A stretch of 64,000 nt of DNA, from NCBI GenBank assembly GCA_017467805.1, contig JAFUKJ010000065.1, positions 1 through 64,000 of the forward strand, read 5' to 3'. Below, one piece after another: positions 44,946 through 62,673 of the stretch (position 1 is its first letter; the number at the start of each line of letters is the position of its first letter). The stretch is from Lachnospiraceae bacterium (GTDB taxonomy: Bacteria; Bacillota; Clostridia; Lachnospirales; Lachnospiraceae). Position numbers and translations under genes: made by a program. Below the pieces are notes generated by a model, which was given only the letters and a program-made list of their open reading frames with translations, made no database searches and was not told the origin of the DNA.

Positions 44946-44975
44946 CTTGCGGACAGGCTTAGTGCCTGACGCAAG
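44946..44975 (+). promoter_or_regulatory. Strong hairpin in front of the D,D-carboxypeptidase gene
   Basis: CTTGCG and CGCAAG enclose an inner CAGGC/GCCTG stem. It ends two bases before the first ATG at 44978 and covers the AAGG in front of it. There is no T-run. It may hide one start and favour the ATG at 44996. Confidence 0.65.
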
Positions 44976-44995
44976 GTATGAGGGATAGAAGAATT

Positions 44996-46141: not shown

Positions 46142-46168
46142 GCTATTTAGAAAGGTAAGATTTTAGAG

Positions 46169-47320
46169 ATGGATAAGAAACAGGAAAAATGTCCTTATGT
46201 GGAAAGATGTGGTGCTTGTAATTTAGGTAAGGTACCTTATGAAGAGACTTTGGTTGAGAAGAAGAAGTGGGTAGAGGAGTGTATCGGAAAGCACTGTAAG
46301 GTGATTCATGATGTAGCAGGTATGTATTACCCATATCATTATCGTAATAAGGTACATGCGGTATTCGGCAGACAGAAGGATAAGGTAATTTCAGGTACCT
46401 ATGCAGAGGGTACGCATACCATCATTCCAATAGAGGATTGTCAGATTGAGGATGCACAGGCTTCAGCAATTATTAAAACAGTAACAGAACTGATTAATTC
46501 CTTTAAGCTTTGGGTATATAATGAGGATACGGGACGTGGTCTGATGCGCCATATTCTGATTCGTAAGGGAATGTCTACAAAGCAGATTATGGTAGTGTTG
46601 GTAACTGCTGCGCCTGAGTTCCCGCATAAGAATAACTTTGTAGATGCTTTGAGAAAGCGTCATCCTGAGATTACAACTATTGTTCAGAATATTAATTCCC
46701 AGCAGACTACAATGGTGCTTGGGGATAGGAATAAGCCGCTCTATGGACCTGGATATATCGAGGATGTGTTATGTGGCCTAAGATTCCGTATTTCGCCGAA
46801 TTCCTTCTATCAGATTAATTCTGCGCAGACACAGGTACTGTATAAGAAGGCAATTGCGGCAGCGGCTTTAACAGGCAAGGAAACAGTGATAGATGCGTAT
46901 TGCGGTATTGGTACTATCGGTATGGCGATGGCTTTTAAGGCTGGAAAGGTGCTTGGTATTGAGCTTAACAAGGATGCCGTGAAGGATGCAAGAGCTAATG
47001 CCAAGAGAAATCAGATTCAGAATATCCACTTTGTGGCAGCAGATGCTACAGATTATATGATAGAGATGGCAGAGGAGGGTAAGACTGTTGATGTGGTAGT
47101 GATGGATCCGCCTCGTAGCGGTAGCACGGAGGAGTTTATCATGGCAACAGCAGATATCAATCCTTCCAGAGTTGTTTATATCTCTTGTAATCCTGAGACA
47201 CTTGGCCGTGACCTTGGATGGTTTAAGAGAGAGGGCTATCAGGCGAAGGAAGCTTGGCCTGTAGATTTATTCTGTCACACCAATCATTGTGAGTGCGTGG
47301 TGTTGTTGGAGAAGAGATAG
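46169..47320 (+). CDS. rlmD: 23S rRNA (uracil-C5)-methyltransferase, RlmD/RlmCD family
   Basis: A 383-residue RumA/TrmA-type enzyme. The N-terminus has CPYVERCGACNLG, cysteines for a [4Fe-4S] cluster. The methyltransferase part has VIDAYCGIGTIGMAMA for SAM, MDPPRSG and the nucleophilic cysteine in VVYISCNPETLGRDL. It methylates a uracil of 23S rRNA. A separate TRAM domain is not visible at the N-terminus, so it is a short form. AAAGGT precedes the ATG. Confidence 0.88.
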   Translation: MDKKQEKCPYVERCGACNLGKVPYEETLVEKKKWVEECIGKHCKVIHDVAGMYYPYHYRNKVHAVFGRQKDKVISGTYAEGTHTIIPIEDCQIEDAQASAIIKTVTELINSFKLWVYNEDTGRGLMRHILIRKGMSTKQIMVVLVTAAPEFPHKNNFVDALRKRHPEITTIVQNINSQQTTMVLGDRNKPLYGPGYIEDVLCGLRFRISPNSFYQINSAQTQVLYKKAIAAAALTGKETVIDAYCGIGTIGMAMAFKAGKVLGIELNKDAVKDARANAKRNQIQNIHFVAADATDYMIEMAEEGKTVDVVVMDPPRSGSTEEFIMATADINPSRVVYISCNPETLGRDLGWFKREGYQAKEAWPVDLFCHTNHCECVVLLEKR

Positions 47321-47333
47321 AAAAATTGGTATA

Positions 47334-47376
47334 AAACAGGGATATGTAACGACGGAAGTGTACATATCCCTATTTT
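47334..47376. terminator. Bidirectional terminator after rlmD
   Basis: GGGATATGT (47339-47347) pairs with ACATATCCC (47362-47370), with an A-rich left side and TATTTT on the right. It lies between convergent genes. Confidence 0.8.
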
Positions 47377-47381
47377 AATGT

Positions 47382-47588
47382 CTAATCTTCTTCAAAAGAA
47401 AATAGCTCTTCCACAGTGGTATCAAATACCTTGGCAATATCCATGGCAAGCTTGAGGGATGGGTTATACTGTCCCTTTTCAATGCGGATAATGGTCTCAC
47501 GACGCACATCTACAAGCTCTGCAAGGGTATCCTGCTTCATGTCGAATTTTGCACGATATTCTTTGATTTTTGTTTTCATTGTAGGCAT
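47382..47588 (-). CDS. XRE-family helix-turn-helix regulator (YozG-like)
   Basis: A 68-residue protein that is almost entirely a Cro/C1-type [30 protein letters not shown]. Short regulators of this kind often pair with a membrane protein gene, as here. GGTGA precedes the minus-strand ATG at 47588. Three palindromic sites lie at the promoter of the upstream membrane gene, so this protein probably represses the pair. Confidence 0.82.
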
Positions 47589-47600
47589 GGTGTCACCGTC

Positions 47601-48071
47601 CTATTCTAAGTTACATTTCTCTAAGATAATAAAGATAATATTTTCCACTAGCTGTGAAAACATAAAAATAGTGATTGGAAGACGTAAATTATCTATGAAA
47701 TCGCCTGTAAATGCAAAGCTGAAATCCTTAATACACCACATTGCTAATATGATGCATAAGATACAGATGTATTTGGAAATATAACCAGCTTTGTATTTAT
47801 TGTGTGATGAAAGTTCATCCCCTTTTTCTGTATTTTTAGTTTGAGCTATAGCTAGAATGCCTATTATGATTAGGAGTATAGACGATGCAGATGATATGAA
47901 CAGGGGTAGAGGAACTGGTGCTAAATAATCTTCTGCTGTGAAAATAATTTGATTCTTGATAAACATTACAATGTTAATAACAACTAACGTTGCCTCGAGA
48001 ATAGCTGACCACGCGGCATTTTTTACAAGAGAGGTTTTCTTGGGTTTATTCATTGTTCCTGTAGTTTCCAT
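47601..48071 (-). CDS. Hypothetical membrane protein, partner of the XRE regulator
   Basis: A 156-residue protein with four hydrophobic segments (about residues 20-40, 50-75, 95-115 and 125-150). I recognise no family beyond the general DUF-type membrane partners of YozG-like regulators. The start at 48071 is chosen because AAAGGAG lies 9-10 bases upstream. The regulator gene begins 12 bases after its stop. Confidence 0.7.
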   Translation of the reverse strand: METTGTMNKPKKTSLVKNAAWSAILEATLVVINIVMFIKNQIIFTAEDYLAPVPLPLFISSASSILLIIIGILAIAQTKNTEKGDELSSHNKYKAGYISKYICILCIILAMWCIKDFSFAFTGDFIDNLRLPITIFMFSQLVENIIFIILEKCNLE

Positions 48072-48110
48072 AAGTATATTCTCCTTTGTGTAAAATAGAT
48101 TAGTAAACAC

Positions 48111-48189
48111 GTGATATATTTGTCACTTGATGTGATAAATATATCACTATGTATTATACTTGTCAATAGAAAAGTGATAAATACATCAC
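48111..48189 (-). promoter_or_regulatory. Promoter with three phased 16-bp operators
   Basis: On the minus strand TTGACA (complement of 48161-48166), 17 bases, then TATATT (complement of 48138-48143). Three near-identical palindromes of type GTGATAAATAYATCAC lie at 48111-48126, 48132-48147 and 48174-48189. Their starts are 21 and 42 bases apart, that is two and four helical turns. The middle one covers the -10 box. They are probably sites for the XRE regulator encoded by this operon. Confidence 0.85.
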
Positions 48190-48401
48190 ATTTTGTATGG
48201 GACTATTAGTAGTATGAAGATAAAACTTTTCCCGATACAAGATTGGTAGATATTGGCATAATAAAACTTCGTTAAAATATACACAAATATTGAAAAATAA
48301 CTGTCAAAGGAATAAAATATAAATAGATTTCTGAAAGCGATGATTGGTTTATAAAAGGAGTTTTCAGAGACTTACAATATATTTAGTCAGGAGTGGTGAA
48401 T

Positions 48402-50108
48402 ATGAAGACAAAGTTAAACGAGATGAGGATCAAAGCAAGATTGACGTATACGTTCAGAATGATTTTGATTATGACAAGTGCGGTCGCAATTGCAGGGATG
48501 ATTTTCATATTCTTTATGAATAGCCAGTACAGTCATACCCTTACATATTATGCGTTTCCGCAGGGAGACATTGGACTTGCCATGAATGAATTTGCGGAGG
48601 TACGAAGTGCGACGAGAGCCGTAATTGGTTACGAGGAGCAGTATGCAATAGACGAAGCTATGGCGCAGCATGACGAAGCGGTGGCAGAGCTTGAGAAATA
48701 TATGGCTTTGATTGAGCCTACTATGGTAACGGCAGAAGGAAAAGCTTCTTTTGCGGCGATTCAGGATGCTTTAGCGGCATATTACGAGGTAGAAGCACAG
48801 GTTTTAGAGATTGGTGCCACAACGGATCAGGAATTATGTGCGCAGGCACAGGAGATGGCACTTCATGAATTGACAGATGTATATAATGCAGCAGATGCTA
48901 CATTTATCGCATTAATGGATGTTAACGTGCAGAAGGGCGATGCCAGCCATGATATGCTGGAAATGTTGGAAATTATATTATTTATCGTAATGATTGTTAT
49001 ACTGGTAATGGCAGTTTCTATTTCAACTAAGCTTGCAGTGACAATTTCTAAGGGAATTGAAAAACCATTAAGCGCGATGCAGGAGCGTTTGAAGAGCTTT
49101 GCAGAGGGTGATTTATCTTCGCCATTTCCAACAGTTGATTCAAAAGATGAAATTGCGGATATGGTAGAGCAGGCTCAGGTTATGGCGAGCAGATTAAATC
49201 AGATTATTGAAGATGTAAGCTATCAGACAGATGAAATGGCAGAAGGTAATTTTGCTGTTAGAACAAAGATGGAAGCGCAGTATACAGGTGATTTTATGAA
49301 TCTGCTTACAGCGATTCGTAAGATGAAGAGTGAGATGAGCAAGACCTTGACAGAGGTTGATGACGCAGCAAGACAGGTTTCAGATGGCTCTACACATCTT
49401 GCAGAGGCGGCGCAGTCATTGGCAGAAGGTTGTACTGATCAGGCTGCATCGGTTCAGGAGATTCAGGCAACAGTAGATAGCCTTGTAGATGGCGTAAAGG
49501 ATACGACCAGACAGGTAGAAGAGTCATATTCTCAGGCGCAGAAGTATGCAGACGAGGCGGAAAAGAGTCGCGTACAGATGGAAGCTATGATGGATGCAAT
49601 GCAGCGTATTAACGATACATCGACACAGATTCAAAATATCATCGGTGAGATAGAGGATATTGCGGAGCAGACGAATCTGTTATCTCTGAATGCGGCAATC
49701 GAGGCTGCAAGAGCAGGTGAGGCAGGTAAGGGCTTTGCGGTGGTTGCAGACCAGATTAGAAATCTTGCAGAGCAGAGTGCGAAGTCTGCAGTAGACACAA
49801 GAGCTTTAATAGAAGGTTCCTTAAAGGAAGTAGATGAGGGTAATAAGGTTGCAATGAAGGCAACTGAATCAATGAAGCTGATAGTAGAGGGAGTTAAGCA
49901 CATTGCTGAAACTTCAAAGCATATCAGTGATTTGTCGGTAGAGCAGTCAGAGGCAATTGAGCAGGTAGATGTGGGAATCAGTAAGATTTCTGAGGTTGTA
50001 GAAGCAAACTCTGCAACAGCACAGGAAACATCTGCTACAAGTGAGGAGCTTGCAGCACAGGCAGCTACTATGAGTGATTTGGTAAGCAGATTTAAGGTAA
50101 TGAAATAA
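48402..50108 (+). CDS. Methyl-accepting chemotaxis protein
   Basis: A 568-residue receptor: membrane span 1 (about 20-42), a four-helix-type sensor domain, span 2 (about 188-210), a HAMP domain ([22 protein letters not shown]) and a cytoplasmic signalling helix bundle. The hairpin tip [23 protein letters not shown] is the fully conserved contact for CheA/CheW. AGGAGTGG precedes the ATG at 48402. The ligand is unknown. It is a stand-alone gene. Confidence 0.93.
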
Positions 50109-50121
50109 TTCAGGTATGATA

Positions 50122-50151
50122 AAAGGCGGTTCAAGAGTGAACCGCCTTTGC
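50122..50151. terminator. Bidirectional terminator
   Basis: AAAGGCGGTTCA and TGAACCGCCTTT form a perfect 12-base stem with an AGAG loop. The T-run is on the minus strand (TTTTAT), so it mainly serves the CPBP gene. Confidence 0.85.
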
Positions 50152-50154
50152 TAA

Positions 50155-51117
50155 TTAACAAGCTTCCATTGGCTTCTTCTTCCAAAAGTATAAAATCAAT
50201 GTACCTGCAATAAGAACGATTGATACAGAAAGGCTTCCTTCTAAGCCAAAGCTGCCACCGCTGAATAGCTCTTTTCCATCGACTGTAGCTGTGGAAAGCA
50301 ATGCGCCGTCAACAGGATTGCCGCTAACCAGAATGCCGTAGAAGTTGCCCTGTACAAAATTCCAAATAGAATGAAGTGCGCCAATGCCCCAAAGGCTTCC
50401 TCTGCGAATAAAATATACAGAAGCAAAGATTCCAAACAGAATAAGGTTAATAAAGGATAATGTAGTAATTCCGCTGTTTCCGAGATGTAATATGGCAAAT
50501 ACGAGAGCATTAGCAAGTATAGCAGCATACATAGGATACCTTCTTGCATAAGAAACCATGAAGTAGCCTCTGCAAAGTACTTCTTCTGCCATACCCTGAA
50601 TCATAAAGCCTAATAAATACAGAATAAATAAGCCCAGTGAAAATGTAGGCGAGATACCTTCAATCTTTAATCCGCCTGTAACGACTCCGATTAATACAGC
50701 AATTGAAAAAATTACAAAACCTACAACGGCACCAATCAGGTATTCTTTTATCATACCTTTCTTAACAAATCCCATGGTAGACATTTTTCTCTTCTGTATT
50801 AATTTACAGAACAGGCAGGCTACAACAATCATCATTATTTCCGAAAAAAGCATGATGAGAAACATAACGTTGTTGGTAGCGATAGTCATAGAGGCTTCCA
50901 TAATGGCAGCTATATCACCAGACTGTACAGCACGCATATAATCTGCGTCACTAAAAGCAATAATCATTGTTGCAGGAGTCTGAATGATACCCATAAACAT
51001 ATTACAGGCAAAAAAAACTGCGATGAATACCAAAATTTCAAGTATCCAGTTCATTCCTTTTTTGGCCGCGGCTGCATCTTCTACGAACTGCGGTCTTTTA
51101 AATAAATCTTTACTCAT
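50155..51117 (-). CDS. CPBP-family intramembrane metalloprotease
   Basis: A 320-residue protein with about eight membrane spans. The family motifs are [13 protein letters not shown] (EExxxR) and FAILHLGN (the F-x3-H motif), in the correct order for CPBP/Rce1-like proteases. In bacteria these enzymes act in bacteriocin immunity, peptide maturation or signalling; which applies here is unknown. The start at 51117 follows AAGGAG on the minus strand. It has its own promoter, divergent from the GH43 gene. Confidence 0.85.
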
Positions 51118-51182
51118 ATAAACTCTCTCCTTAGATAAATTATGTAAACTTTCACACGATAACGTAAGAAAGTTGCAAGGGT

Positions 51183-51211
51183 ATTGTAGCATGTAGTTTA
51201 CATAATTTCAA
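51183..51211 (-). promoter_or_regulatory. Promoter of the CPBP gene
   Basis: On the minus strand TTGAAA (complement of 51206-51211), 17 bases, then TACAAT (complement of 51183-51188), preceded by TGC (extended -10). Confidence 0.7.
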
Positions 51212-51248
51212 TAAATACACAAGGAATCTGTTCGGAAATGGGAAAATA

Positions 51249-51257
51249 TGCTACAAT
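51249..51257 (+). promoter_or_regulatory. Promoter of the GH43 gene (extended -10)
   Basis: TGCTACAAT, an extended -10 box, with no good -35. An 11-base stretch around it (ATGCTACAATA) is the mirror image of the divergent promoter's -10 region. Confidence 0.55.
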
Positions 51258-51293
51258 ATTTTTGATGGGTTACATAAGTTTGGGAGGTACTTT

Positions 51294-53534
51294 ATGAGAA
51301 GATTGAATAAGAAATTTTTATGTCTTGTATTGGCGGGATGTATGACGATGCAGTTAACTGCTTGCGGTGGCTCGAATACGACTGATACAAGTACAACACC
51401 AGAGACAGCAGTTGAGTCTTCGACACAGGTGGAGTCGGCATCTGTGGCAGAGACAACAGAGACAGAGGAAACACAGGTAGTAGAGGAGACAGGCTATGTA
51501 TTTACACCAACCTCATCTGACCTTGTGCCGATGGATTATGATGTGAAGGTAGCGGCTAACCGTAATGATGACGGCAGCAAGAAGTATGTGACAAGCGAGA
51601 TTACACCGACGATTTGCTATGACAACCTTTCGCTTGGATATCTGACAGAGGATGCGAAGACTTATACTCTTGAGCTTGTTGAAGGAGCAGTAGACAGTGT
51701 AGAGGTGTCTGCCATTGATGAGAATTATGCAAGTATCAGTGTGGAAGAATTGGCAGCTTGGAATGAGGCAAGTAATACATTAACCGCAAATCAAAGTGCT
51801 GCTAAGAATGGCAAGGTATTTTTGGATTTGAAGAAGGGCAGTGATGTGGTATTTACAGTATCCGTCAATGTTGCCGCAGCCTATCCTTCAGACCCTGACT
51901 ATGATATTGATAAAGAAACCATGGATAATGGTGAGTTTGAGTTCCTTTGGAATGAGTATGACGGTAACTGCAATGTTCATGATCCGTCCTTAACAGAGGT
52001 AGAGATTGACGGACAGCGTTACTACTATATGGTACAGACAGGCTGGGAGGGCGGTAATCAGATTCGCCGTTCTACCGATTTGTTCCATTGGGAGCATCTT
52101 GGCTATACAACACCTTCCGCAGATAAGATGGAAGAGTATGGCTGGACCGAGATGAATGATTGGATGCTTAAGGATGCATCTAAGTGCCAGTATTGGGCAG
52201 CAGATATTGTGCCTGCTTCTTATGGTGGATACTGGTTATATACATGTGTGGTAAACTCAGCAGTGGATGAAGAAAAGCATGACAGAGTATGTACAGTGCT
52301 TGCGTGGTCGCCAACCTTAGAGGGTGGTTCCTTCCAGTATGTGGGATGTATTTTGCAGTCTATCAGTGATTACGCGCAGGATGCTTTATATTACAATGTG
52401 GTAGCACTTGACCCACAGGTAGTATATGATGCAGACGGTAATATGTACTTAACCTTTGGTTCCTTTGGCGCGGGTACTTATATGATAGAGCTTGACCCTG
52501 AGACAGGACTTCGTAAGGACGGTATCAATGAGTGGCTTTCAGAGGATATCATTAATACCTATATGGAAGAGGCAAGAGCAACTGGTATTGGTGATGTTCA
52601 CTCGTACTATGGAAGACATATGACCTACTGTGCAGAGGGTAGCTTGATTACACATCAGTATGATGTTCCTATCGTGGCTGAAGATGGTACAGTAACAGAG
52701 GTTAAGGACGATTATTATTATCTGATGACTTGTCTTGGTGTATTATCAAGAAACTATGTACTTTTTACAGCAAAGAGTGATGATATTACTTCATTTACTA
52801 ACTTAAGCGGTGACCCTATGGCATCTGGTTGGATTGGTAAGGAGCTTGTAACGGGCTTATTCCCACCATTGTCAGGTTATCGAAAGGATTTGGATAGAGA
52901 AGGCTATATTACAACTGCAGAGCGCATCGAGGGAAGTACGGAGTATATTGCGATGTCATCCTTCAAGTGGGCTGATTATGATTTTGATATTCATGCACCA
53001 GGGCATGGTGATTTATATACTACAAGCGATGGTGTCAATATTGCACAGCTTATGGTTAGAACATTGGCTTATCAGGCAGATAAGACTGGAGCTTGTGATA
53101 ATGGACATCCACTGGCAGCATCAAGTACAAAGTTCATGCAGCAGGCACATCAGTACTATATTAATTCTGTTGGTGATATTGTCATCAATGCAAACCGCTA
53201 CGCAGGTGAGGTTGACCGCCCTGTAACACAGGAAGAGTTCCTGTCATTTGCAGAGAACGGAGAGTTCCAGATGGTGCTTGCGGGTGACCCATATGTGACA
53301 ACAGAGGCAATATATGTGAATCTCAATACAGATGGAACTATCAGCGGAAGTGCAACAGGTACATGGATGATGTATGGCGATAATTACATCAAGTTAGTAG
53401 TAGACGGATATGATACCTACTATGGTGTGGTAGGCGTGTCATGGCTTGATAATAAGGGATGTGTGGGAACAACAGTAACAGCCATGGGACAGACTACAGG
53501 ATGGCCGTTATATATGAACAGTGAGACAGAATAA
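51294..53534 (+). CDS. GH43-like arabinanase-type lipoprotein
   Basis: A 746-residue exported protein. The signal ends in the lipobox LTAC (Cys24), then a Thr/Ser/Glu linker. A beta-rich domain (about 70-195) precedes the five-bladed GH43 propeller. Candidate catalytic residues are Asp230 in NVHDPSL (base), Asp373 in LDPQVVYD and Glu448 in CAEGSLITH (acid). The last ~90 residues resemble the C-terminal beta-domain of extracellular endo-1,5-alpha-arabinanases. It probably cuts arabinan side chains of plant pectin at the cell surface. It is monocistronic. Confidence 0.8.
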   Translation: MRRLNKKFLCLVLAGCMTMQLTACGGSNTTDTSTTPETAVESSTQVESASVAETTETEETQVVEETGYVFTPTSSDLVPMDYDVKVAANRNDDGSKKYVTSEITPTICYDNLSLGYLTEDAKTYTLELVEGAVDSVEVSAIDENYASISVEELAAWNEASNTLTANQSAAKNGKVFLDLKKGSDVVFTVSVNVAAAYPSDPDYDIDKETMDNGEFEFLWNEYDGNCNVHDPSLTEVEIDGQRYYYMVQTGWEGGNQIRRSTDLFHWEHLGYTTPSADKMEEYGWTEMNDWMLKDASKCQYWAADIVPASYGGYWLYTCVVNSAVDEEKHDRVCTVLAWSPTLEGGSFQYVGCILQSISDYAQDALYYNVVALDPQVVYDADGNMYLTFGSFGAGTYMIELDPETGLRKDGINEWLSEDIINTYMEEARATGIGDVHSYYGRHMTYCAEGSLITHQYDVPIVAEDGTVTEVKDDYYYLMTCLGVLSRNYVLFTAKSDDITSFTNLSGDPMASGWIGKELVTGLFPPLSGYRKDLDREGYITTAERIEGSTEYIAMSSFKWADYDFDIHAPGHGDLYTTSDGVNIAQLMVRTLAYQADKTGACDNGHPLAASSTKFMQQAHQYYINSVGDIVINANRYAGEVDRPVTQEEFLSFAENGEFQMVLAGDPYVTTEAIYVNLNTDGTISGSATGTWMMYGDNYIKLVVDGYDTYYGVVGVSWLDNKGCVGTTVTAMGQTTGWPLYMNSETE

Positions 53535-53546: not shown

Positions 53547-53585
53547 ATAGGCAAACCTATGTAAAGGTTTGCCTATTCGGTTTTA
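53547..53585 (+). terminator. Terminator after the GH43 gene
   Basis: ATAGGCAAACCT (53547-53558) and AGGTTTGCCTAT (53565-53576) form a perfect 12-base stem, followed by a short T-run (TTTT) a few bases later. Confidence 0.75.
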
Positions 53586-53632
53586 TGGTATCTTTTCTTA
53601 TATATTGGAGAATACTACTTATAGCATATTAA

Positions 53633-53683
53633 GTGCAAGAATTGCACCAAGTCTTGACAAAAGTGCAATTTCTGCACTAATAT
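53633..53683 (+). promoter_or_regulatory. Promoter with two operators for the HTH-MntA gene
   Basis: TTGACA (53654-53659), 18 bases, TAATAT (53678-53683). GTGCAAGAATTGCAC (53633-53647) lies upstream of the -35, and GTGCAATTTCTGCAC (53663-53677) fills the spacer. Centres are 30 bases apart. Autoregulation by the HTH domain of the gene product is the likely use. Confidence 0.8.
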
Positions 53684-53701
53684 GAATGTGGAGGTGTAAA
53701 T

Positions 53702-54175
53702 ATGGGTAAGATCAAAGAAATGAGATTAGATAAAAACATGACGCAACAAGAAGTTGCAGATTTAGTTGGGATTTCATTGCGTTCTTATAAATCATATGAA
53801 AATGATGAAAATAAGGAAGGAACAATTAAATACAAGTATATTATTGAGCAGTTAGAAAAAATTAACTTTATCGATGAAGATCATGGAGTATTGACCATAA
53901 AAGATATTGAGAAAAAATGTTCAAAAGTATTGGAGCAGTATGATGTAAGCTTTTGCTACTTGTTTGGTTCTTATGCTAAAGATAAGGCTACACCTACTAG
54001 TGATGTTGATTTGCTTCTTTCATCAAATGTGAAAGGATTGAAATTTTATGGATTAGTTGAGGAATTGCGGATTGCACTTCGAAAAAGGGTAGATGTTCTC
54101 GATATAAATCAATTAAAAGACAATCTGGAATTAACAGAGGAAATACTAAAAGATGGAGTACGAATTTATGGATAA
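53702..54175 (+). CDS. HTH-fused MntA-type nucleotidyltransferase antitoxin
   Basis: A 157-residue fusion. Residues 1-55 are an XRE helix-turn-helix (MTQQEVADLVGISLRSYKSYE), and residues ~65-155 are a minimal nucleotidyltransferase with the exact GS-x10-D-x-D motif (Gly89, Ser90, Asp101, Asp103). MntA antitoxins of this type AMPylate and silence the HEPN RNase HepT. A HepT remnant follows directly and overlaps by eight bases, so this was once a full MntA-HepT pair. The HTH domain adds DNA binding for self-control. GGAGG precedes the ATG. Confidence 0.85.
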   Translation: MGKIKEMRLDKNMTQQEVADLVGISLRSYKSYENDENKEGTIKYKYIIEQLEKINFIDEDHGVLTIKDIEKKCSKVLEQYDVSFCYLFGSYAKDKATPTSDVDLLLSSNVKGLKFYGLVEELRIALRKRVDVLDINQLKDNLELTEEILKDGVRIYG

Positions 54176-54322
54176 TAGAAAGAATAATATATACCATGGA
54201 ATGCAATGAGTGGTATGTGCAACAGAATTGTACATGATTATGGAAATGTGGATTTGAATGTAGTATATGAAACTTTAAAAAATGACATTCCTGAACTTTT
54301 GGATTTGCTAGACAAGGATTAA
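54168..54322 (+). pseudogene. Decayed HepT-type HEPN toxin
   Basis: The start ATG at 54168 overlaps the antitoxin stop and gives 13 codons (MDNRKNNIYHGMQ) before a TGA. From about 54191, in another frame, the normal HepT C-terminus appears: IPWNAMSGMCNRIVHDYGNV and a final NDIPELLDLL. About 65 central codons are missing, which fits an internal deletion with frameshift. In the R-x4-H-x-Y active site the arginine is now cysteine. The toxin should therefore be dead, leaving an orphan antitoxin. Confidence 0.8.
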
Positions 54323-54411
54323 TATAGTAGATTTTGAAAGAGAATGTAGGTTGACTATGTTCTCTTTTATAGAGTTAATTAGATGATTTTGAGAGATTGG
54401 AGACATTAATT

Positions 54412-55206
54412 ATGAACAACAAATCATTTGACTTTGAACGTATTGCACAAGGCTATGCTAAGGATAGACCTTGGTTGCATCCACAGGTGATGGAAAGACT
54501 AAGAGAGGATTTACAGATAAAGGATAATTTTCATAATGGATTAGATGTGGGATGTGGTGCAGGTCTCTCAACAAAAGCTTTAAAACTAATATGTGACAAG
54601 GTCACAGGTACAGATATTTCAGAGGAAATGATAAAGGTATGTAAGGTGCTTTATCCTGAGTCAGAGTATATTTTTGAGCAGAGTGCGGCAGAAGCGACGA
54701 TAGCTGAGGTGAATACCTTCGATATTGTTACAGCAGCAGGAGTAATTAACTGGGTAGATGAAGAAAAGTTCTTACATAGTTTGCATAAGGTTATGTGTGA
54801 CAAAGGCTTGCTGTGTATTTATGATTTCTGGATATCTGACCGCATGAAGAATAACGAAGCTTACACCAAGTGGTATCAGGAAAAATATTTAAAAACTTTC
54901 CCAAAGCCACCACGTAAGGAATATACTTGGACAGATGCTAATCTCATTGATGGTTTTCGGATACTTAAACAGGTGCAGTATCAGTTAACACATGAATTTG
55001 ATAAGGATTCTTTCATTCGTTTTATGATGATTCAATCCAATGTAAATGCACAGATAGACGCAGGACAGAAGCGTGTTGAGGAAGTGAAAGAGTGGTTTGA
55101 AGATACATTGCGGGATGTCTGGGCATCTGAGAAACATACTTTGATTTTTGAAGGTTACAGTTGGTATATTGAATTGAATAAATATAAGAACTCCAGTTGT
55201 TTTTAG
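54412..55206 (+). CDS. Class I SAM-dependent methyltransferase
   Basis: A 264-residue protein with SAM motif I GLDVGCGAGLSTKAL (about residue 45), motif II acidic TGTDISEEM and a post-motif TAAGVINWVDEEKFL. It is like small-molecule methyltransferases of the UbiE/trans-aconitate type. The substrate is unknown. GGAGA precedes the ATG at 54412. A short copy of its central part, with a stop codon, lies just after its own stop. Confidence 0.8.
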   Translation: MNNKSFDFERIAQGYAKDRPWLHPQVMERLREDLQIKDNFHNGLDVGCGAGLSTKALKLICDKVTGTDISEEMIKVCKVLYPESEYIFEQSAAEATIAEVNTFDIVTAAGVINWVDEEKFLHSLHKVMCDKGLLCIYDFWISDRMKNNEAYTKWYQEKYLKTFPKPPRKEYTWTDANLIDGFRILKQVQYQLTHEFDKDSFIRFMMIQSNVNAQIDAGQKRVEEVKEWFEDTLRDVWASEKHTLIFEGYSWYIELNKYKNSSCF

Positions 55207-55243
55207 ACGGCAGCAGGTGTGATTAACTAGGTAGATAAAAAAG
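55207..55243 (+). pseudogene. Remnant of a methyltransferase paralogue
   Basis: These 37 bases match 54730-54768 inside the methyltransferase gene except for about five substitutions and a small gap. They would read TAAGVIN-stop-VDKK. Most changes are at third positions, so the copy diverged as a gene before it was lost and is not a fresh duplication. Confidence 0.7.
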
Positions 55244-55322
55244 TAGCTACTATTATGTCAACTAGACATAAAATGTGTTAATATGCAAGAGTACGACAAA
55301 TTCTTCAGTAGAGGTAACAACA

Positions 55323-56495
55323 ATGTATAGATTTATGAGCGAAGAAGAAATTGAAATCAGACAAATCAGTGATTTGAAAATGATTCATCTCTATCAGCTG
55401 AATGGTAATGATGCCATAGCTGCATATTATGGTGACAATAAACAGATCAATTTGTGTGCATTAGATGAAAATTATAATCTTCTAATGGAAAAAATACTTA
55501 CTCTGTATTCTCAATGTGAAGATAAAGATTCTATTGTAATAGAAGATAGTGCAAGAAAAATTCTGGATAAGGTTATAACACGCGATATACATCATACTTC
55601 TTTTTTTAATCGAATTGGAGAATTTTATGCCAGACAAGAAGGTGTCTTATGTCCTCGCTTTGCATCCGATGGCATTATTCGGGATACCTTAATTCCGATG
55701 CTTCAATATTATTTACATCAGTTATATCATATGTGGAATGTGGAAATTAAGTTTGGTCAGGAGTCAGTTGGCTGGCATCGAAACTGCGTGATGAACGCGA
55801 CCTATGGTAATGAAACATTTATTATGCCTGTTAGGATAACTATGTTAAATGATCATGATTATAAAATAGCAGTAGGCAACTTTATGCATAACTTTAGTAA
55901 TATAGAATTCGAGATTTCATATAGTGAAGACAAACTAAGTATAATTTTCGAAAATGCCAAAATGGAGCTTTTCGGAGAAAGCTACTTTAAATTAAACAAC
56001 CAGCAGATGAAAGCTTATACCACTATTTATATTGAGAAAAAAGCGGTATACCATCAAGATGAGCCTTTAGAACAACTTACCTATACGGAAGAACATTTAC
56101 AGTGTGCGCTGAAGCAAAAAGCTTTTTTAGCAGATGTGGATTCTGTATTTACATATGCAGCTATTTATCGGCTTCCTTGGAATGATTTTATCATTTATCG
56201 TGATAATCATACCCAAGATGAACAGTACAATCGAAACGATTATGATAACCTTTACGTCAATGAATATCAGGGTAAGTTTGTCTTAAGACAATATTCTTAT
56301 GGTTTAGTAGAAGACAAGTCAAATGGTTTAAAACTCAGAACGGATGGTGCTGTTATGAGAAAAATTTACTATGGCGATAAACGTAACGAAATAGAGACAT
56401 TTTTTATGCCTGTTGGATATTATTCGGGCTGGGATTACAAGGAATACTTGGAAGATAAATACTTTTATCATACAACGGAGGAAATGCAGGAATGA
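55323..56495 (+). CDS. Hypothetical protein A of the AAA+ operon
   Basis: A 390-residue soluble protein that I do not recognise. It is rich in aromatic residues and has a mixed alpha/beta pattern, with no membrane span or signal. Motifs that stand out are SVGWHRNCVMNATYGNETF near residue 155 and FVLRQYSYGLVEDKSNG near residue 320. GAGG precedes the ATG at 55323. Its stop overlaps the start of the ATPase gene (ATGA), so it is translated with it. It is a possible substrate-binding or effector partner. Confidence 0.65.
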   Translation: MYRFMSEEEIEIRQISDLKMIHLYQLNGNDAIAAYYGDNKQINLCALDENYNLLMEKILTLYSQCEDKDSIVIEDSARKILDKVITRDIHHTSFFNRIGEFYARQEGVLCPRFASDGIIRDTLIPMLQYYLHQLYHMWNVEIKFGQESVGWHRNCVMNATYGNETFIMPVRITMLNDHDYKIAVGNFMHNFSNIEFEISYSEDKLSIIFENAKMELFGESYFKLNNQQMKAYTTIYIEKKAVYHQDEPLEQLTYTEEHLQCALKQKAFLADVDSVFTYAAIYRLPWNDFIIYRDNHTQDEQYNRNDYDNLYVNEYQGKFVLRQYSYGLVEDKSNGLKLRTDGAVMRKIYYGDKRNEIETFFMPVGYYSGWDYKEYLEDKYFYHTTEEMQE

Positions 56496-58708
56496 GTTTA
56501 TTTGATAAAAAATATGAAAAAGATATGGAATCACAGAATAGATTAAAAGCTATGATACGTCAGATGAAAAATGAGTATGAAAATACCCATGCTTATGATA
56601 GTGCTTTCTTTCAGTATTTGGAGGTAATAGCCAAAAGACCTGAGTTTTCAGTCATTCAACCACTTGAGCTTTTTGTGGAGATGTTTTCTACTATGCAGCA
56701 AAACACACGTGATTATAGTATTCATACATACTATACTGCCATTCAAAAAGCGGAAGATATCTATCAGAAAATGTTTCCTTACGGTGTAAATACAGATGAT
56801 TTTCCTCATCTTGCATATGCATTTGTGAATTTTTTTAAACCGAATAGTCTGTCTGTCTTAGAGTTGTTTGATGTGAAACTGATGTCAACCTTCAGCAATA
56901 AGCAAAACTATGTTGAATATATGAGCACAATTACAGATGCCAGGAAATTCAAAGAATGCCTGAATCATATTTCTCAATATGGCTTGAAAGTAAGACAATA
57001 TTTTGTAGATGATGCTACATATACTGCTAATATGAAGCAGGTAACACAGATGCTGTTTTTATCTGCTGATAAAGCAGGCGTTATAGAAGAGAACCTTCAA
57101 AAAGTGGAACGAATGGCTGGTATCTATAATATAGACGAAGCAGATGTCGCGAAAGCAGAACATCAACTTCTGCAGGCAAATGCTCTTTTGAATCAGACGC
57201 TGGGTATTTTGACACAGGCTGACAAAAAAAGTGAGCAATTAAATCGTATTATGAAGGATACGACGGAGACAATACAAAGTATCTCAAAGCGTGAAACGGA
57301 CTTATTAACCGCAAAAGCAATAAGTGCCAAGGAAGATATCAATGCTGCTTATCAAAGCTTTTTGGAAACACAGCGTCATGAAGTGATATTACAAAAAGAT
57401 GTTTTGTTAGACCAGTTATTTAAGGAGTCTGAATCAAAGCTTAACGAATTAAGAACTATGGCGAGAGCCATTGCTGCTTCTGCTAATGCCGAGCTGGTGC
57501 GAATTAATACGGAAGCATCAAATGCTTTGGATAAACTCAATAATTATGTAAGTACGGATGAACACTTAGCTAATATCTTAGCAAAAGCCAACGAAAGCAA
57601 TGAATTATATGAAAAGATATCCAAACTAGAATTGTTAAATGCTGTCAATATCGAAGCCCTTACCAAAGGGTTGGAAGCCAAAAAGGCGACAGAGGCTGTG
57701 GTTACAGAGAACGTATCTACGGCTGCACAAAGTGTTGTTTTGGCGGTGGATTCGTCTGAGGATACTCAACCAGCTGTAATACCTACAGTAAATCCGATGC
57801 TTGACCCTTCGATTCCGTTTGAACAGAGATTTGGTATGGTAAAAGCAGAAAAGCAGCGAAGAATCCAGCGAGGCGAACATTTCCATGCAATGTTTGATGA
57901 TGTGATTACTGTGCTTATGGAAAACGCCAATCCATACTTAATTGGTCCATCAGGATGTGGAAAAACGTTTATGATTAAACAGATTTCTGAAATATTAAAC
58001 CTTGATTATATTGATATTGGATATATCAATGAAGAATATGATATCTTAGGCTTCCAGACTGCAACTGGAGGATATAGTACGCCTAATTTCTATCGTTGCT
58101 ACAAATATGGCAAAATTGCATTTTGTGACGAGTTGGATAATGGTAATAGCCGTGCTACTGTAAAGTTGAATTCCTTTTTATCTTCAGAAACAGATGCAGG
58201 TTATAGTTTTCCTAACGGTGAAAATGTTAAAAGACATAGTAATTTCCGCATTATTGCTGCTGGTAATACTGCTGGAAATGGAGCAGATGCCAATTATAAT
58301 ACGCGTGAAAAAATTGAGGAATCCGTACAGCAGAGATTTACGCCTATCTATGTGGGATACGATAATGCTGTGGAAGAAAAAATTCTTGGTAAATATAAGG
58401 ACTGGTATCAATTTGTAGTATTATTCCGTCAGGCAACTGAGGCGTGGGGAAATTTGAACGATTGTGCAGCTCCTGGAATCGTTACGACAAGAGATGCTGC
58501 CAGAATTAAAAAATATCTGGACAATAAGAGTCTTGATATGGCTAGAATTCTTAATTATGAATTTATTCAGACTAAGGATATGGATTATTTGACATTCTTG
58601 AAAAAGCACATAGGTGAAAGCATTAAGTCTTACCCTGATGCAAAAGCAATTTACACGATGTTTGACGCGATGATTGAATCTTTAAGGAAGAAAGGCGGCT
58701 CGAGATAG
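56492..58708 (+). CDS. Coiled-coil MoxR/dynein-type AAA+ ATPase (protein B)
   Basis: A 738-residue protein. The first ~410 residues are helical with long coiled-coil stretches (about 200-370). The C-terminal third is an AAA+ module of the AAA_5/MoxR kind: Walker A GPSGCGKT (485-492), Walker B IAFCDELDN (Asp546, Glu547), sensor-1 FRIIAAGNT and a late QQRFTPIYV arginine. MoxR-like ATPases work as chaperone rings with VWA-domain partners. Here the next gene encodes a candidate partner. The ATG overlaps the previous stop, with GGAGG at 56476-56480. Confidence 0.85.
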   Translation: MSLFDKKYEKDMESQNRLKAMIRQMKNEYENTHAYDSAFFQYLEVIAKRPEFSVIQPLELFVEMFSTMQQNTRDYSIHTYYTAIQKAEDIYQKMFPYGVNTDDFPHLAYAFVNFFKPNSLSVLELFDVKLMSTFSNKQNYVEYMSTITDARKFKECLNHISQYGLKVRQYFVDDATYTANMKQVTQMLFLSADKAGVIEENLQKVERMAGIYNIDEADVAKAEHQLLQANALLNQTLGILTQADKKSEQLNRIMKDTTETIQSISKRETDLLTAKAISAKEDINAAYQSFLETQRHEVILQKDVLLDQLFKESESKLNELRTMARAIAASANAELVRINTEASNALDKLNNYVSTDEHLANILAKANESNELYEKISKLELLNAVNIEALTKGLEAKKATEAVVTENVSTAAQSVVLAVDSSEDTQPAVIPTVNPMLDPSIPFEQRFGMVKAEKQRRIQRGEHFHAMFDDVITVLMENANPYLIGPSGCGKTFMIKQISEILNLDYIDIGYINEEYDILGFQTATGGYSTPNFYRCYKYGKIAFCDELDNGNSRATVKLNSFLSSETDAGYSFPNGENVKRHSNFRIIAAGNTAGNGADANYNTREKIEESVQQRFTPIYVGYDNAVEEKILGKYKDWYQFVVLFRQATEAWGNLNDCAAPGIVTTRDAARIKKYLDNKSLDMARILNYEFIQTKDMDYLTFLKKHIGESIKSYPDAKAIYTMFDAMIESLRKKGGSR

Positions 58709-58709
58709 T

Positions 58710-59639
58710 ATGGGTAAAATCAATTATGGAGTACGTCCTGAGGAATGTCCATTCCTTACAATTGAAAGAGCGGAGCAAAACTATATATATCGGGCAGCCT
58801 TCCCTTCACTAAGTCAATTGTATTTGTTTTTATCATCTAATCCGACTTTGAATAACTTTACCTTTGCCACACAGAAAAGTATGACCTTTTCTGAAGCGTT
58901 TGCAGGAGAACCGTTAGATATAGCCATTGATTATTGTCTTGGTGGTTATGAAAAAGATTTTTCTATGTTTATTAAGCTAAAGAGAGATATCGACAGGGTT
59001 AATTTACGTCATGTTCCAAGTCGAAGGCCGCGGCCTTCCGTTGTTGGTTCACGCCCTAATGTACCTGCTTTCGTAGCTGGTGCTCCTCTTTCCATGTATC
59101 GTATGGATAGAGTAAAGCCCAAAAAGCTGATTACGGTATATATCAATCTGGCTTATAATAACAACACTACGGAGGCTCAGATTCGTAATCGTGGTATTCT
59201 GACACTTAATCTGATTAAGCTATTAGAAAATAATGACTATATTGTAAATTTTAAAGTGTTTGAAATATGTGCTGTACATAATGAAATATTTGTAGTGAAC
59301 ATTGGACTAAAAAAGCCTGGCGAACTTCTTGATGTAAAAAAATGTTACTATCCGTTATGTGGCAAAGAATTTTTACGTAGAGTGATTAGCAGAGTGAAAG
59401 AATCTATGCCTTTTCGTGAAAAATGGCATATGACTTATGGGCAGTTAGTCAATGAGCAATTAGCCAGGGAACTTATGGATATTCCAGAGGATGCAATTTT
59501 AATTAGTGATCCGGATTCCATGCAAATATATGGCGAAAACATCTATGCGGATGCGGATGCATTTTTGGAGAAGCTACATCTTTCGGAGATGATTTCCGTG
59601 CCCAATTATACACAAGAGTCGAAGGAGCATAAAAATTGA
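58710..59639 (+). CDS. Possible VWA-like/DUF7192-type partner of the AAA+ ATPase (protein C)
   Basis: A 309-residue protein. Residues ~140-210 contain KKLITVYINLAYNNNTTEAQ followed by RGILTLNLIKLLENNDYIVNF, which looks like the beta-strand plus helix of a VWA-like or DUF7192-type fold. The canonical MIDAS motif DxSxS is not preserved. The N-terminal half is unassigned. It starts one base after the ATPase stop, in the place where MoxR operons encode their VWA protein. The next gene overlaps it by four bases. Confidence 0.6.
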   Translation: MGKINYGVRPEECPFLTIERAEQNYIYRAAFPSLSQLYLFLSSNPTLNNFTFATQKSMTFSEAFAGEPLDIAIDYCLGGYEKDFSMFIKLKRDIDRVNLRHVPSRRPRPSVVGSRPNVPAFVAGAPLSMYRMDRVKPKKLITVYINLAYNNNTTEAQIRNRGILTLNLIKLLENNDYIVNFKVFEICAVHNEIFVVNIGLKKPGELLDVKKCYYPLCGKEFLRRVISRVKESMPFREKWHMTYGQLVNEQLARELMDIPEDAILISDPDSMQIYGENIYADADAFLEKLHLSEMISVPNYTQESKEHKN

Positions 59640-60490
59640 GTGAGACATATATGAGTCAGATAATGACTGATAATTCTGAAAGTGCTTTGACAGAAGAGGA
59701 ATTACAAGAAGTTGAGAAATATTATACTACAATTGATTTATCGGATTCTGCTGCTATCATAGAGTATGGTTTGGATGTACAAAAAAAGCTTTCTGAATTA
59801 TCAGAAAGAATGCTTTCTGGTATTTATTCTCAGGGTATGGAAAATATTGGCAGCACTCTGGATACAACCGTGGCTTATTTGAGAGACATTGAAGAGGAGA
59901 ATAATAGAGTTACTTTGTTCAGGAGTAAGAAGCAGAAAAACATGAGAGAAAAGTATTGTCGAGCCAAACAAAATGTTGACAGCCTTACAGATACACTTCA
60001 GAAGCATCAAATACAGCTTATGAAGAACTGTGCCTTGATTAGTCAGCTTAACCATATGCATACGGTATTTTTTCGTGAGTTAAAGGTTCGGATTATTGCA
60101 GCTGATAGAAAATTGAATGACTGCAGACTGCTTCTTGTACAACTTCAAAATAAAGCAGCTGTATCTGGTCTTGAACAGGATGTCTTAGAGGTCGTTAAAC
60201 TGAACACGCAAATTGATAAGCTGGAGAAACGAATGCAGGCTTTGTTGCTTACAGAAGCTGTGTCTGTACAATCGGAAGCTTTGATTCGCTTCGCTCAGTC
60301 TAATCAAACTACGATGGCTCAGAAGCTTCAAACTATTTTGCTTAATACAATTCCTCTTTGGAAAGAACAGATGATATTGGCAATCAAGTCAGCCTCTAAC
60401 AATACGATGCCAGATACTAACAAAGTATTAATGGATAAATTATCTGAGGTAATTTGTATTCAAAATCAGAAACTCAAGATTGAGGGATAG
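59636..60490 (+). CDS. Coiled-coil protein D of the AAA+ operon
   Basis: A 284-residue, almost wholly helical protein with heptad-like stretches, for example residues ~60-130 and 165-200. It may act as a scaffold or adaptor, perhaps binding the coiled-coil half of the ATPase. The start is taken as TTG at 59636, which overlaps the previous stop (TTGA) and has AAGGAG eight bases upstream. ATG at 59651 is the alternative. I recognise no family. It is the last gene of the four. Confidence 0.65.
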   Translation: MSETYMSQIMTDNSESALTEEELQEVEKYYTTIDLSDSAAIIEYGLDVQKKLSELSERMLSGIYSQGMENIGSTLDTTVAYLRDIEEENNRVTLFRSKKQKNMREKYCRAKQNVDSLTDTLQKHQIQLMKNCALISQLNHMHTVFFRELKVRIIAADRKLNDCRLLLVQLQNKAAVSGLEQDVLEVVKLNTQIDKLEKRMQALLLTEAVSVQSEALIRFAQSNQTTMAQKLQTILLNTIPLWKEQMILAIKSASNNTMPDTNKVLMDKLSEVICIQNQKLKIEG

Positions 60491-60499
60491 GTTTTTTGA

Positions 60500-60540
60500 G
60501 CATGATATGATAGAATGAGCCATATATCATGCATTTTGGG
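60500..60540 (+). terminator. Hairpin after the AAA+ operon
   Basis: GCATGATAT (60500-60508) pairs with ATATCATGC (60524-60532), followed by ATTTT. Weak as a terminator but in the right place. Confidence 0.5.
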
Positions 60541-60551
60541 AGGAAAGATAC

Positions 60552-61820
60552 ATGAAATTGAATTATAAGAGAACCGTATTAATTGGACTTGCATTCCTGT
60601 CAATTAGCTCATTTTGGCAGATGTATGACAATGTAATACCGTTGATTTTAAAGAATAGCTTTGGTTTAGGAGAGACAGTTACAGGTTTCATTATGGCAGC
60701 GGACAATGTGCTTGCTTTATTTTTATTACCTGTTTTTGGTATGATTTCTGATAAAGTGGACACACCTATAGGTAAGAGAATGCCGTTCATCTTAGGTGGA
60801 ACAGCATTGGCACTTTGCTTTTTGATGATACTTCCATATGCGGATAATACGCGTAATCTTGTATTGTTTGTAGTAGGCTTGTTTTTTCTGTTGTTATCTA
60901 TGGGACTTTATCGCTCGCCTGCAATTGCACTGATGCCTGATTTGACCCAGAAGCCGCTTAGAAGTACAGCAAACGCGATTATTAATCTGCTTGGTACATT
61001 AGGTGCAGTATATTCGCTTGTGATGATTAAGGTATTAGTAGGAAAAGGCGATACTCCAAATTATCAGCCGCTGTTTATGGCAGTAGGATTGCTGATGTTG
61101 GTAAGCGTTGTAGTTCTTTTTTTAACGATAAAGGAGAAAAAGCTTAGAGTAGAGCTTGGGATTGAGGAACAGGTAGAAGAGGAGAAGAACTCAACCGACG
61201 AAAAGCTTCCACCTGATATGAAGAAGAGTCTAATCCTGATTTTATTATCAGTATCCTTCTGGTTTATGGCTTATAATGCAGTAACGACAGCATTTTCTCG
61301 CTATGCGACTACGGTTTGGAATGTAGAAGGCGGTGGCTATGCAGATTGTCTTATGGTAGCAACTGTGGCAGCAGTCATCAGCTATTTACCGATTGGAGCT
61401 ATTTCTAATCGAATTGGACGTAAGAAGACAATACAGATGGGCATTATTCTGCTTGGACTTTGCTTTTTGATTGCAGGCTTTTATACCAATTATCATGTGA
61501 GCATGAATTTCTTCTTTGCATTGATTGGTTTTGCTTGGGCAGCTATTGGTGTGAATTCATTGCCGATGGTAGTAGAGATATGTTCAGCAGGAAATGTAGG
61601 TAAGTACACAGGCTATTATTATACATTCTCTATGTCGGCGCAGGTGTTAACACCGATTATGTCGGGATTTTTATTAGAGCATGTATCCTATAGAACATTG
61701 TTCCCGTATTCAGTTGTGTTCTGTATTCTGGCATTTGTAACATTTTCAATGGTAAAGCATGGAGATTCCAAGCCAGAGCAGAAGAAGAGTGTTTTAGAGA
61801 ATTTTGATGTGGAAGATTAG
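60552..61820 (+). CDS. MFS transporter (sugar-transporter-like)
   Basis: A 422-residue protein with twelve hydrophobic spans and a charged central loop (about residues 205-230). GMISDKVDTPIGKRMPF between spans 2 and 3 is the MFS signature loop. The opening and overall pattern are like SLC45/GPH-type sugar carriers of Firmicutes. The substrate is unknown. GGGAGGAAAG precedes the ATG. The phosphodiesterase gene follows 30 bases later. Confidence 0.82.
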   Translation: MKLNYKRTVLIGLAFLSISSFWQMYDNVIPLILKNSFGLGETVTGFIMAADNVLALFLLPVFGMISDKVDTPIGKRMPFILGGTALALCFLMILPYADNTRNLVLFVVGLFFLLLSMGLYRSPAIALMPDLTQKPLRSTANAIINLLGTLGAVYSLVMIKVLVGKGDTPNYQPLFMAVGLLMLVSVVVLFLTIKEKKLRVELGIEEQVEEEKNSTDEKLPPDMKKSLILILLSVSFWFMAYNAVTTAFSRYATTVWNVEGGGYADCLMVATVAAVISYLPIGAISNRIGRKKTIQMGIILLGLCFLIAGFYTNYHVSMNFFFALIGFAWAAIGVNSLPMVVEICSAGNVGKYTGYYYTFSMSAQVLTPIMSGFLLEHVSYRTLFPYSVVFCILAFVTFSMVKHGDSKPEQKKSVLENFDVED

Positions 61821-61850
61821 GGTAAAATTATATAGAAGGTGAGGAGTATC

Positions 61851-62657
61851 ATGACTGCGGTCAAGATTATAGTTGTTTTATTAGTGATATATATCTTTTT
61901 GATATGTCCGAGAATCTTTAAAAAGGCAGACAGAAATCCTTTGATGGGAATACATTATGCTCATAGAGGTTTGTTCGATAATGCGTCGGAAAGTCCTGAG
62001 AATTCACTGTCAGCATTTGCAAAGGCAGTGGAGGCGGGATATGGAATAGAGCTTGATGTGCAGTTAAGCAAGGACGATATACCTGTTGTTTTCCATGATG
62101 CAACCTTGGAGAGGATGTGCGGTGTGGAAGGCAATGTCTGGGACTATACGTTAGCAGAGCTGCAAAGCATGAAGCTTGCAGATTCACAGGAAACCATTCC
62201 GACCTTGGCACAGGCGCTCGAGGTGATTGGCGGAAAGACACCGATTATTATTGAATATAAGATGGACAGACCTGATGTGAAGGTTTGCGAACTTGGAAAT
62301 GAGTTATTAGAGAATTACGAAGGTGTGTATTGCATGGAATCCTTTCATCCCTTTGCTGTGCGCTGGTATCGGTTCAAGCGTCCTGATATTGTAAGAGGCC
62401 AGCTATGTATGGATTATTGGAAGGATGATGTGTATAAGAAGAAGCCAATGTATTGGCTGGTAGGCATTATGCTTACCAATTTCCTTGGCAGACCTGACTT
62501 TATTGCATTTAAGCACAGTGATGCAGGAAATGTGTCCAGACAGGCATGTCGTTTACTTGGCGGCTTGTCAGTTGCATGGACAATCAAGAGCAAGGAAGAA
62601 TATGAAAAGGCTAAAGACCAGTTTGATTTATTTATTTTTGATAGCTGCAGGTTGTAG
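61851..62657 (+). CDS. Glycerophosphodiester phosphodiesterase, membrane-anchored
   Basis: A 268-residue protein with an N-terminal membrane segment (residues 3-22) and a GDPD TIM-barrel. The active site is visible: YAHRGLFDNASESPENSLSA (HR and ENS), GIELDVQLSKDDIPVVFHD (E-x-D and the second histidine) and IIEYK. It hydrolyses glycerophosphodiesters to glycerol 3-phosphate and an alcohol, probably at the membrane face. The ATG at 61851 follows GGTGAGGAG. Confidence 0.9.
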   Translation: MTAVKIIVVLLVIYIFLICPRIFKKADRNPLMGIHYAHRGLFDNASESPENSLSAFAKAVEAGYGIELDVQLSKDDIPVVFHDATLERMCGVEGNVWDYTLAELQSMKLADSQETIPTLAQALEVIGGKTPIIIEYKMDRPDVKVCELGNELLENYEGVYCMESFHPFAVRWYRFKRPDIVRGQLCMDYWKDDVYKKKPMYWLVGIMLTNFLGRPDFIAFKHSDAGNVSRQACRLLGGLSVAWTIKSKEEYEKAKDQFDLFIFDSCRL

Positions 62658-62673
62658 ATAGTATTTTAAAGCT

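Follow-up and report, generated by a model that had tools for sequence, protein, structure and literature searches.

In the NorQ-NorD system, NorD needs its full MIDAS signature for activation of cNOR. MoxR-vWA pairs are described as the cores of proposed conflict systems, and some divergent vWA partners may lose MIDAS aspartates, according to the accessible part of PMC7159879; for jumbo phages, the accessible part of PMC7824862 proposes that a MoxR-vWA pair aids virion assembly. The same part of the latter source reports the proposal that Ter systems with TelA counter superinfecting phages and treats MoxR-vWA and TelA separately, and the available portion of PMC12791056 states that the mechanism of Listeria TelA in resistance is not known. 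Here we describe an operon that encodes an AAA+ ATPase, a DUF7192 protein and a divergent TelA together with a fourth protein. The four-gene set was not found in the literature searched, which agrees with an earlier reading made from the sequence only that could match it to no named system.

The operon lies in a 64,000-nt stretch of contig JAFUKJ010000065.1 from a Lachnospiraceae bacterium (the window) and consists of four genes on the + strand: A (55323..56495; 390 aa, unknown family), B (56492..58708; 738 aa, AAA+ ATPase), C (58710..59639; 309 aa, DUF7192 protein) and D (59636..60490; 284 aa, divergent TelA with a TTG start). We recovered all four frames in the tightly packed arrangement first noted: the reading frames of A and B share 4 bases (ATGA, 56492-56495), as do those of C and D (TTGA, 59636-59639), and a single base (58709) separates B from C. 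The start of A was placed at 55323 rather than at the GTG at 55275 because 10/10 homologues start at the same point, and TTG was accepted as the start of D because its homologues are alignable from MSxxxMS. Motif scans, which were not used as evidence, returned 25 promoter-like matches against 20.6 expected and 5 terminator-like matches against 2.6 expected. The GC3 of A-D (0.29-0.35) falls inside the range of the window (mean 0.346, sd 0.068), so that composition gives the stretch no foreign mark.

Regional identities divide B into a variable N-terminal part (residues 1-215), a coiled-coil-like region (216-400, by eye) and an AAA core (approximately 430-738). The protein carries GPSGCGKT (485) and FCDELDN (544), which we take to be the Walker A and Walker B motifs, as well as AAGNT (589) and QQRF (613), presumably sensor-1-like and arginine-finger-like, respectively. 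B matched PF07728 in Pfam (3.2e-11) and phrog_249 (2.8e-33). The core alone matched ClpX (0.018) and NirQ/NorQ (0.079) weakly, and a profile of full-length B gave no match at 0.001. A profile of the core plus four phage homologues matched midasin (2.1e-63), NorQ/CbbQ (2.5e-16) and CobS (2.1e-13), with other AAA+ proteins ranking behind (5e-9); with the phage homologues in the profile, the earlier assignment of B as a MoxR-type AAA+ held. For the helix 2 insert, the criterion of the MoxR/NorQ/CobS clade in the accessible definition of PMC7159879, a sequence alignment showed that B aligns with its NirQ/NorQ counterpart between Walker A and Walker B. As judged from the profile comparison, B is a member of this clade.

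C matched PF23822 (DUF7192) at 1.2e-16, with 61.3 bits against a curated cut-off of 27, in agreement with its description as DUF7192-like; the literature searched did not contain DUF7192 by name. The best structural match of the C model was NorD, with a weak Z, which supports the VWA-like fold that had also been suggested for this protein. Residues 105-135 are the most conserved stretch of C and are proposed to form a pore finger. A full DxSxS (MIDAS) signature at the first strand was absent from the eight rows examined, the residues being NLAYN in C, DLTYD in two related loci (L014 and L031) and NSSIS in phage GH15. C is predicted to be a co-chaperone of VWA-like type whose metal site is degenerate. 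The C gene adjoins the AAA+ gene in 12/12 loci that have B and C, as does its phage counterpart in 4/4 phage loci, and the evidence supports B and C as a motor pair.

Compared with NorQ-NorD, the AAA of B falls by profile in the same clade and C has NorD as its best structural match; however, C lacks a full DxSxS, and the operon has no nor genes and has TelA and A added. The VMAP/iSTAND MoxR-vWA ternary systems, as described in the accessible source text, likewise combine a MoxR-like AAA+, a VWA-like protein and a further protein, but carry effector domains on the vWA protein, whereas C has no effector domain. Among the third components named in that text, VMAP, iSTAND, FtsH and beta-propeller, no such Pfam family was found in A, C or D by a general Pfam scan.

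The same two families as in B-C, adjacent and in the same order, were found in 4/4 phages (Acinetobacter AM24, Mycobacterium DyoEdafos, Staphylococcus GH15 and Listeria LP-124). The sequence-only reading likened B-C to a MoxR-VWA pair, which the present evidence supports, and missed this phage counterpart. The phage pair is annotated as hypothetical or 'porphyrin biosynthesis', and no function was found for it. The phage AAA proteins are 338-417 aa long, in contrast to the 738 aa of B, and the four phage records lack the TelA that the operon has. The AAA of B was matched in 408 of 50,697 phage records, the AAA-DUF7192 pair being checked in four; among the matches listed, none spans more than 40% of B, and all fall within residues 365-704. 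A tblastn search with C found none in phages, a C profile gave 13 pattern matches in IMG/VR, of which 0 were confirmed, and B had one weak AAA match among plasmids.

D, initially described merely as a coiled-coil protein, belongs to a named family: it matched PF05816 (TelA, toxic anion resistance) at 3.3e-40, with 138.6 bits against a curated cut-off of 30. The 11 D proteins of the module form one group with support of 99/96 in an unrooted tree of 24 rows. D shares the TelA family with Ter, XpaC-TelA and YceG-TelA-TerD loci; however, whereas TelA of congeners is partnered by XpaC (L045) or by YceG and TerD (L047), TelA of the operon is partnered by an AAA+ and a DUF7192 protein, and TerD, TerC and XpaC are absent from the operon. 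A Pfam scan of seven window proteins (the operon, two upstream neighbours and one downstream neighbour) found no TerD, TerC, TerB or nucleoside-type enzymes. Nine TelA matches occur in human faecal records that bear the label Bacteriophage sp., and no homologues of A, B or C were found in two of these records (L037 and L039). Proximity of TelA to the motor in phages was ruled out for the seven records tested; in Lactobacillus phage LpeD, an AAA gene lies approximately 2.9 kb upstream of TelA, but this gene is of PF00004 type and the record is without DUF7192.

A is on average the least conserved of the four proteins, its homologues being 19-53% identical to the A of the window. In its model, the N-terminal part mixes helices and strands, and residues 148-364 form a region rich in beta structure. 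A belongs to no recognisable cofactor-binding family; a copper-binding Pfam model was touched by 1/11 A homologues at an E of 0.095, which is not meaningful.

The order A-B-C-D is kept in all 11 complete loci examined (the window, L006-L012, L014, L015 and L031), a twelfth contig (L013) stopping inside C. The recurrence of the same four proteins in the same order argues that the arrangement exceeds chance. Distances between pairs of loci, taken for each of the four proteins over 10 loci, are correlated (r 0.81-0.99). The module is rare: C is present in 4/397 genomes of the family and 1/39 of the genus, and the DUF7192 model matched in 1/291 genomes of the class, the genome of the window itself. 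The 5.3-kb stretch that bears the operon (55185..60507) is absent from the congener G881, where both flanks are kept with 5 bases between their ends at 12541 and 12547 (window 54408-55184 corresponding to 11765-12541 of locus L032 at 84%, and window 60508-62666 to 12547-14722 at 82%). This empty site and the occurrence in a single genome of the genus mark the operon as accessory and without a fixed place, as had been supposed. No reported repeat pair joins the two ends of the stretch as a mobile-element signature, and loss from G881 rather than insertion here may account for the difference.

Upstream, a class I methyltransferase gene (54397..55206, + strand) lies outside the module; far from being debris, as it had been labelled, it is intact, and G881, which lacks the operon, has its orthologue in the corresponding position. 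A toxin-antitoxin-like neighbour does exist in the form of a gene for an HTH and MntA-type nucleotidyltransferase protein (53702..54175, + strand; PF18765 2.3e-15, HTH_3 3.5e-8), but it sits in a separate stretch (53578-54407) that is likewise absent from G881. By eye, a nucleotidyltransferase/HEPN-like pair was seen upstream in L013.

We tentatively propose, with somewhat less than an even chance of being right, that the operon encodes a NorQ/NorD-like motor, that this motor acts on an envelope-protecting assembly built on TelA, and that A serves as a variable partner. B would form the AAA+ ring of an ATP-driven remodelling machine like NorQ/NorD or CobS/CobT, and C would be its VWA-like partner, with segment 105-135 as a putative pore finger. 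The motor would act on an assembly based on D, its target or effector, and this assembly may shield the envelope of the cell from toxic anions, from cationic peptides or from antibiotics directed at the cell wall. The part of variable recognition subunit or client would fall to A. A bolder version is doubtful: the four proteins would make up a machine whose NorQ/NorD-type motor, akin to the phage pair and with a VWA partner of degenerate metal site, powers TelA assembly or disassembly at the membrane, while A serves as a recognition subunit that diverges rapidly; this would be the first ATP-driven TelA system.

Alternatively, the motor and TelA could block phage or other incoming DNA in the manner of Ter or MoxR-vWA systems, with A as sensor or effector. 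Such an anti-phage or conflict role would be in keeping with the conflict cores and TelA-bearing Ter systems proposed in the accessible parts of PMC7159879 and PMC7824862, the patchy spread and empty site, and the L013 pair seen by eye. Two window neighbours also match PADLOC, the nucleotidyltransferase to PDC-S09 (2.1e-14) and the methyltransferase to mad2 (4e-12, over the methyltransferase-domain stretch); however, the latter is an ordinary methyltransferase that G881 has at the same place without the operon, and the former lies in a stretch of its own. Against PADLOC-DB 2.0.0, A, C and D had no match at E <= 1 and B matched only mad8 (0.04), and 0/9 scanned flank proteins from six loci of relatives matched PADLOC. 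The same four proteins are kept throughout, and swapped effector domains were not seen. Of the accessory or defence role first suggested, the accessory part agrees with the empty site, and we consider defence unlikely.

Maturation of a cofactor or complex, in which B-C would open its client A to let a metal be inserted or assembly proceed, much as NorQD acts on cNOR, with TelA as a scaffold, appears more improbable still. The closest solved relatives of B-C (NorQD, CobS and CbbQ) do insert metals or remodel enzymes and A is the first gene of the operon, but A is poorly conserved and has no recognisable cofactor-binding family, and the first strand of C lacks the full MIDAS signature that NorD needs. 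We regard as very unlikely that B-C is a domesticated phage morphogenesis chaperone that still works on phage-like assemblies or has drifted. The DUF7192 model is found in one of 291 class genomes compared with 4/4 phages, beside the AAA gene, and the virion-assembly proposal for jumbo phages (accessible part of PMC7824862) points the same way; on the other side stand the partial coverage of B by the phage matches listed, the long divergence (A down to 19% identity) and intactness of the module, and the flanks read, where inspection by eye picked out no phage gene.

If a motor acting on TelA is the correct reading, a TelA with a dedicated motor would represent a novel mode of operation for a protein already known to be protective, and so compact a TelA-motor operon would offer a direct biochemical handle on TelA mechanism through ATPase activity, ring assembly and TelA remodelling. 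The operon is also a cellular counterpart to the unexplained AAA-DUF7192 pair of phages.

The four genes lie tightly packed on the forward strand, as the sequence-only reading had described: A (55323–56495) and B (56492–58708) share an ATGA overlap, B and C (58710–59639) are 1 base apart, and C and D (59636–60490) share a TTGA overlap. Homologues back ATG as the start codon of A and TTG as that of D. Family and profile scans placed A in no family. B carries a C-terminal AAA core (PF07728, 3.2e-11; phrog_249, 2.8e-33) preceded by an N-terminal region of approximately 430 residues, and C is a DUF7192 protein (PF23822, 1.2e-16; phrog_1909, 4.7e-21). D had been described as a coiled-coil protein only; the gene is present, but its membership of the TelA family (PF05816, 3.3e-40) had been overlooked. 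A crude hydropathy scan showed no obvious membrane segment in A, B, C or D.

When the genome_contigs collection was scanned by pattern with C as the query, eight loci came up, all in MAGs titled Lachnospiraceae; seven keep the A-B-C-D order and the contig of the eighth stops inside C. Genome searches added two more loci with the full order (L014 in G073 and L015 in G189), and G1082 supplied a third (L031). The co-occurrence of A–D in other genomes therefore holds, the same order being found in all 11 complete loci, the window included. Across ten loci the distance matrices of the four proteins correlate in all six pairs (r = 0.81–0.99), with 0 to 3 of 2,000 permutations reaching the observed value; this fits joint inheritance, and host relatedness by itself would likewise produce such correlations. 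Mean pairwise identity is 65% for C, 60% for B, 53% for D and 44% for A, and homologues of B are 64–81% identical to the window protein over the AAA core and 20–47% over residues 1–215.

The module is rare. Among genomes of the family, A turned up in 3 of 200 and C in 4 of 397; at class level C was seen in 1 of 391 genomes, and at phylum level B in 1 of 299 (E ≤ 1e-30). Within the genus, C was found in 1 of 39 genomes; if only those with completeness of 90% or more and contamination of 5% or less are counted, the figure is 1 of 19. The samples overlap, and the window's own genome is part of every count. Alignment to the congener G881 pairs window positions 54408–55184 with 11765–12541 of its locus L032, and 60508–62666 with 12547–14722, so that the 5.3 kb carrying the operon is missing from the aligned site; as the proposal of a new system had supposed, the operon is not at a fixed place in relatives. 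C was not found elsewhere in the G881 genome (96% complete). The more economical explanation is that the stretch was inserted in the window's lineage, because C was found in no other genome of the genus; loss from G881 is possible. Base composition gave no mark of foreignness for the operon stretch, and no repeat pair joins its two ends.

B and C as a NorQ/NorD-like motor is a supported reading, the motor match depending on phage rows. A full DxSxS was found at the first VWA-like strand in none of eight rows (NLAYN in the window's C, DLTYD in the C proteins of L014 and L031, NSSIS in phage GH15), so the metal site of C appears degenerate at these positions. In NorD, excerpts of the published work report that MIDAS mutants kept NorQ binding and lost target activation (PMC9976466); by analogy, a partner with a degenerate MIDAS could still engage the ring, and its target would need to be held some other way. 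Residues 105–135 of C, directly before the first VWA-like strand, are its most conserved region among 11 bacterial rows (mean top-residue frequency 0.90; 14 of 31 positions invariant), with a small lead once phage rows are added (0.54 versus 0.51 for residues 201–240). This segment may correspond to the NorD pore finger, given as residues 403–448 in the excerpt consulted (PMC13036017). Mycobacterium phage DyoEdafos (NC_053511.1) carries two DUF7192 genes, 69311–70153 and 73042–73866, the second of which adjoins an AAA gene.

Of the genus's 39 genomes, among them that of the window, 26 carry a TelA, and the eight fetched copies stand in other contexts than the module: L045 has an XpaC-TelA pair, L047 has YceG-TelA-TerD-TerD (the second TerD by similarity only), and the contexts at L046 and L048–L052 were judged from layout alone. 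In an unrooted tree with long branches, the D proteins of the 11 modules make up a single group (support 99/96), and the window's genome (95% complete) yielded no further TelA. According to excerpts of published work, TelA contributes to nisin and tellurite tolerance in Listeria; for Ter systems, the proposal is that TelA and a vWA protein together build structures beneath the membrane. DUF7192 and TelA occur together in none of seven phage records, so the motor–TelA link is so far particular to the A–D module. One human faecal record that bears the name Bacteriophage sp. (L037, MT836617) resembles a bacterial chromosome fragment, with ribosomal protein, tRNA synthetase and glycogen genes recognized by eye near XpaC-TelA.

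A role in defence would agree with the PADLOC matches of both neighbours that precede the operon in the window, yet A, C and D have no such match and B has only mad8 at 0.04. The methyltransferase, previously taken for debris, is intact and also present in G881, and is therefore backbone; since its mad2 match (4e-12) moreover covers a methyltransferase-domain stretch (residues 35–162 versus 283–415 of 492), it says little on defence. The other neighbour, an HTH and MntA-type nucleotidyltransferase gene (53702–54175; PDC-S09, 2.1e-14) next to which no HEPN partner was seen, lies in a second stretch missing from G881 (53578–54407; GC 0.30 versus 0.41 in 40001–53500), and represents an insertion distinct from the adjoining module. 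At six relative loci, none of the nine flank proteins scanned matched PADLOC, a tenth having been set aside because its frame was wrong and the flanks of L007, L008, L013, L015 and L031 being left out. By eye, the neighbours include DNA polymerase, IspG, HtpG and elongation factor G type genes at L014 and L015, and tryptophan synthase at L006, L008, L011 and L012. Hints of a conflict role come from a same-strand DUF4132 gene that immediately precedes A in L006–L008 (L006 1314–5360, PF13569 8.3e-51; L007 and L008 assigned by clustering), and from a nucleotidyltransferase/HEPN-like pair recognized by eye upstream of A on the short contig L013 (529–1285). In the E. coli yeh locus, DUF4132 adjoins MoxR-like AAA and VWA genes.

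Gene order, conservation, the empty site and the families of B, C and D are observations; from these we propose that the conserved segment of C would enter the B ring, that ATP cycles would drive movement of C, that C or the N-terminal region of B would act on D, A or both, and that the resulting assembly would shield the envelope. The low sequence conservation of A and of the B N-terminal region would fit components whose target keeps changing; other explanations are possible. We found no published description of the A-B-C-D set in the literature searched. The motor type and TelA are already known; their combination, and A itself, appear to be new.
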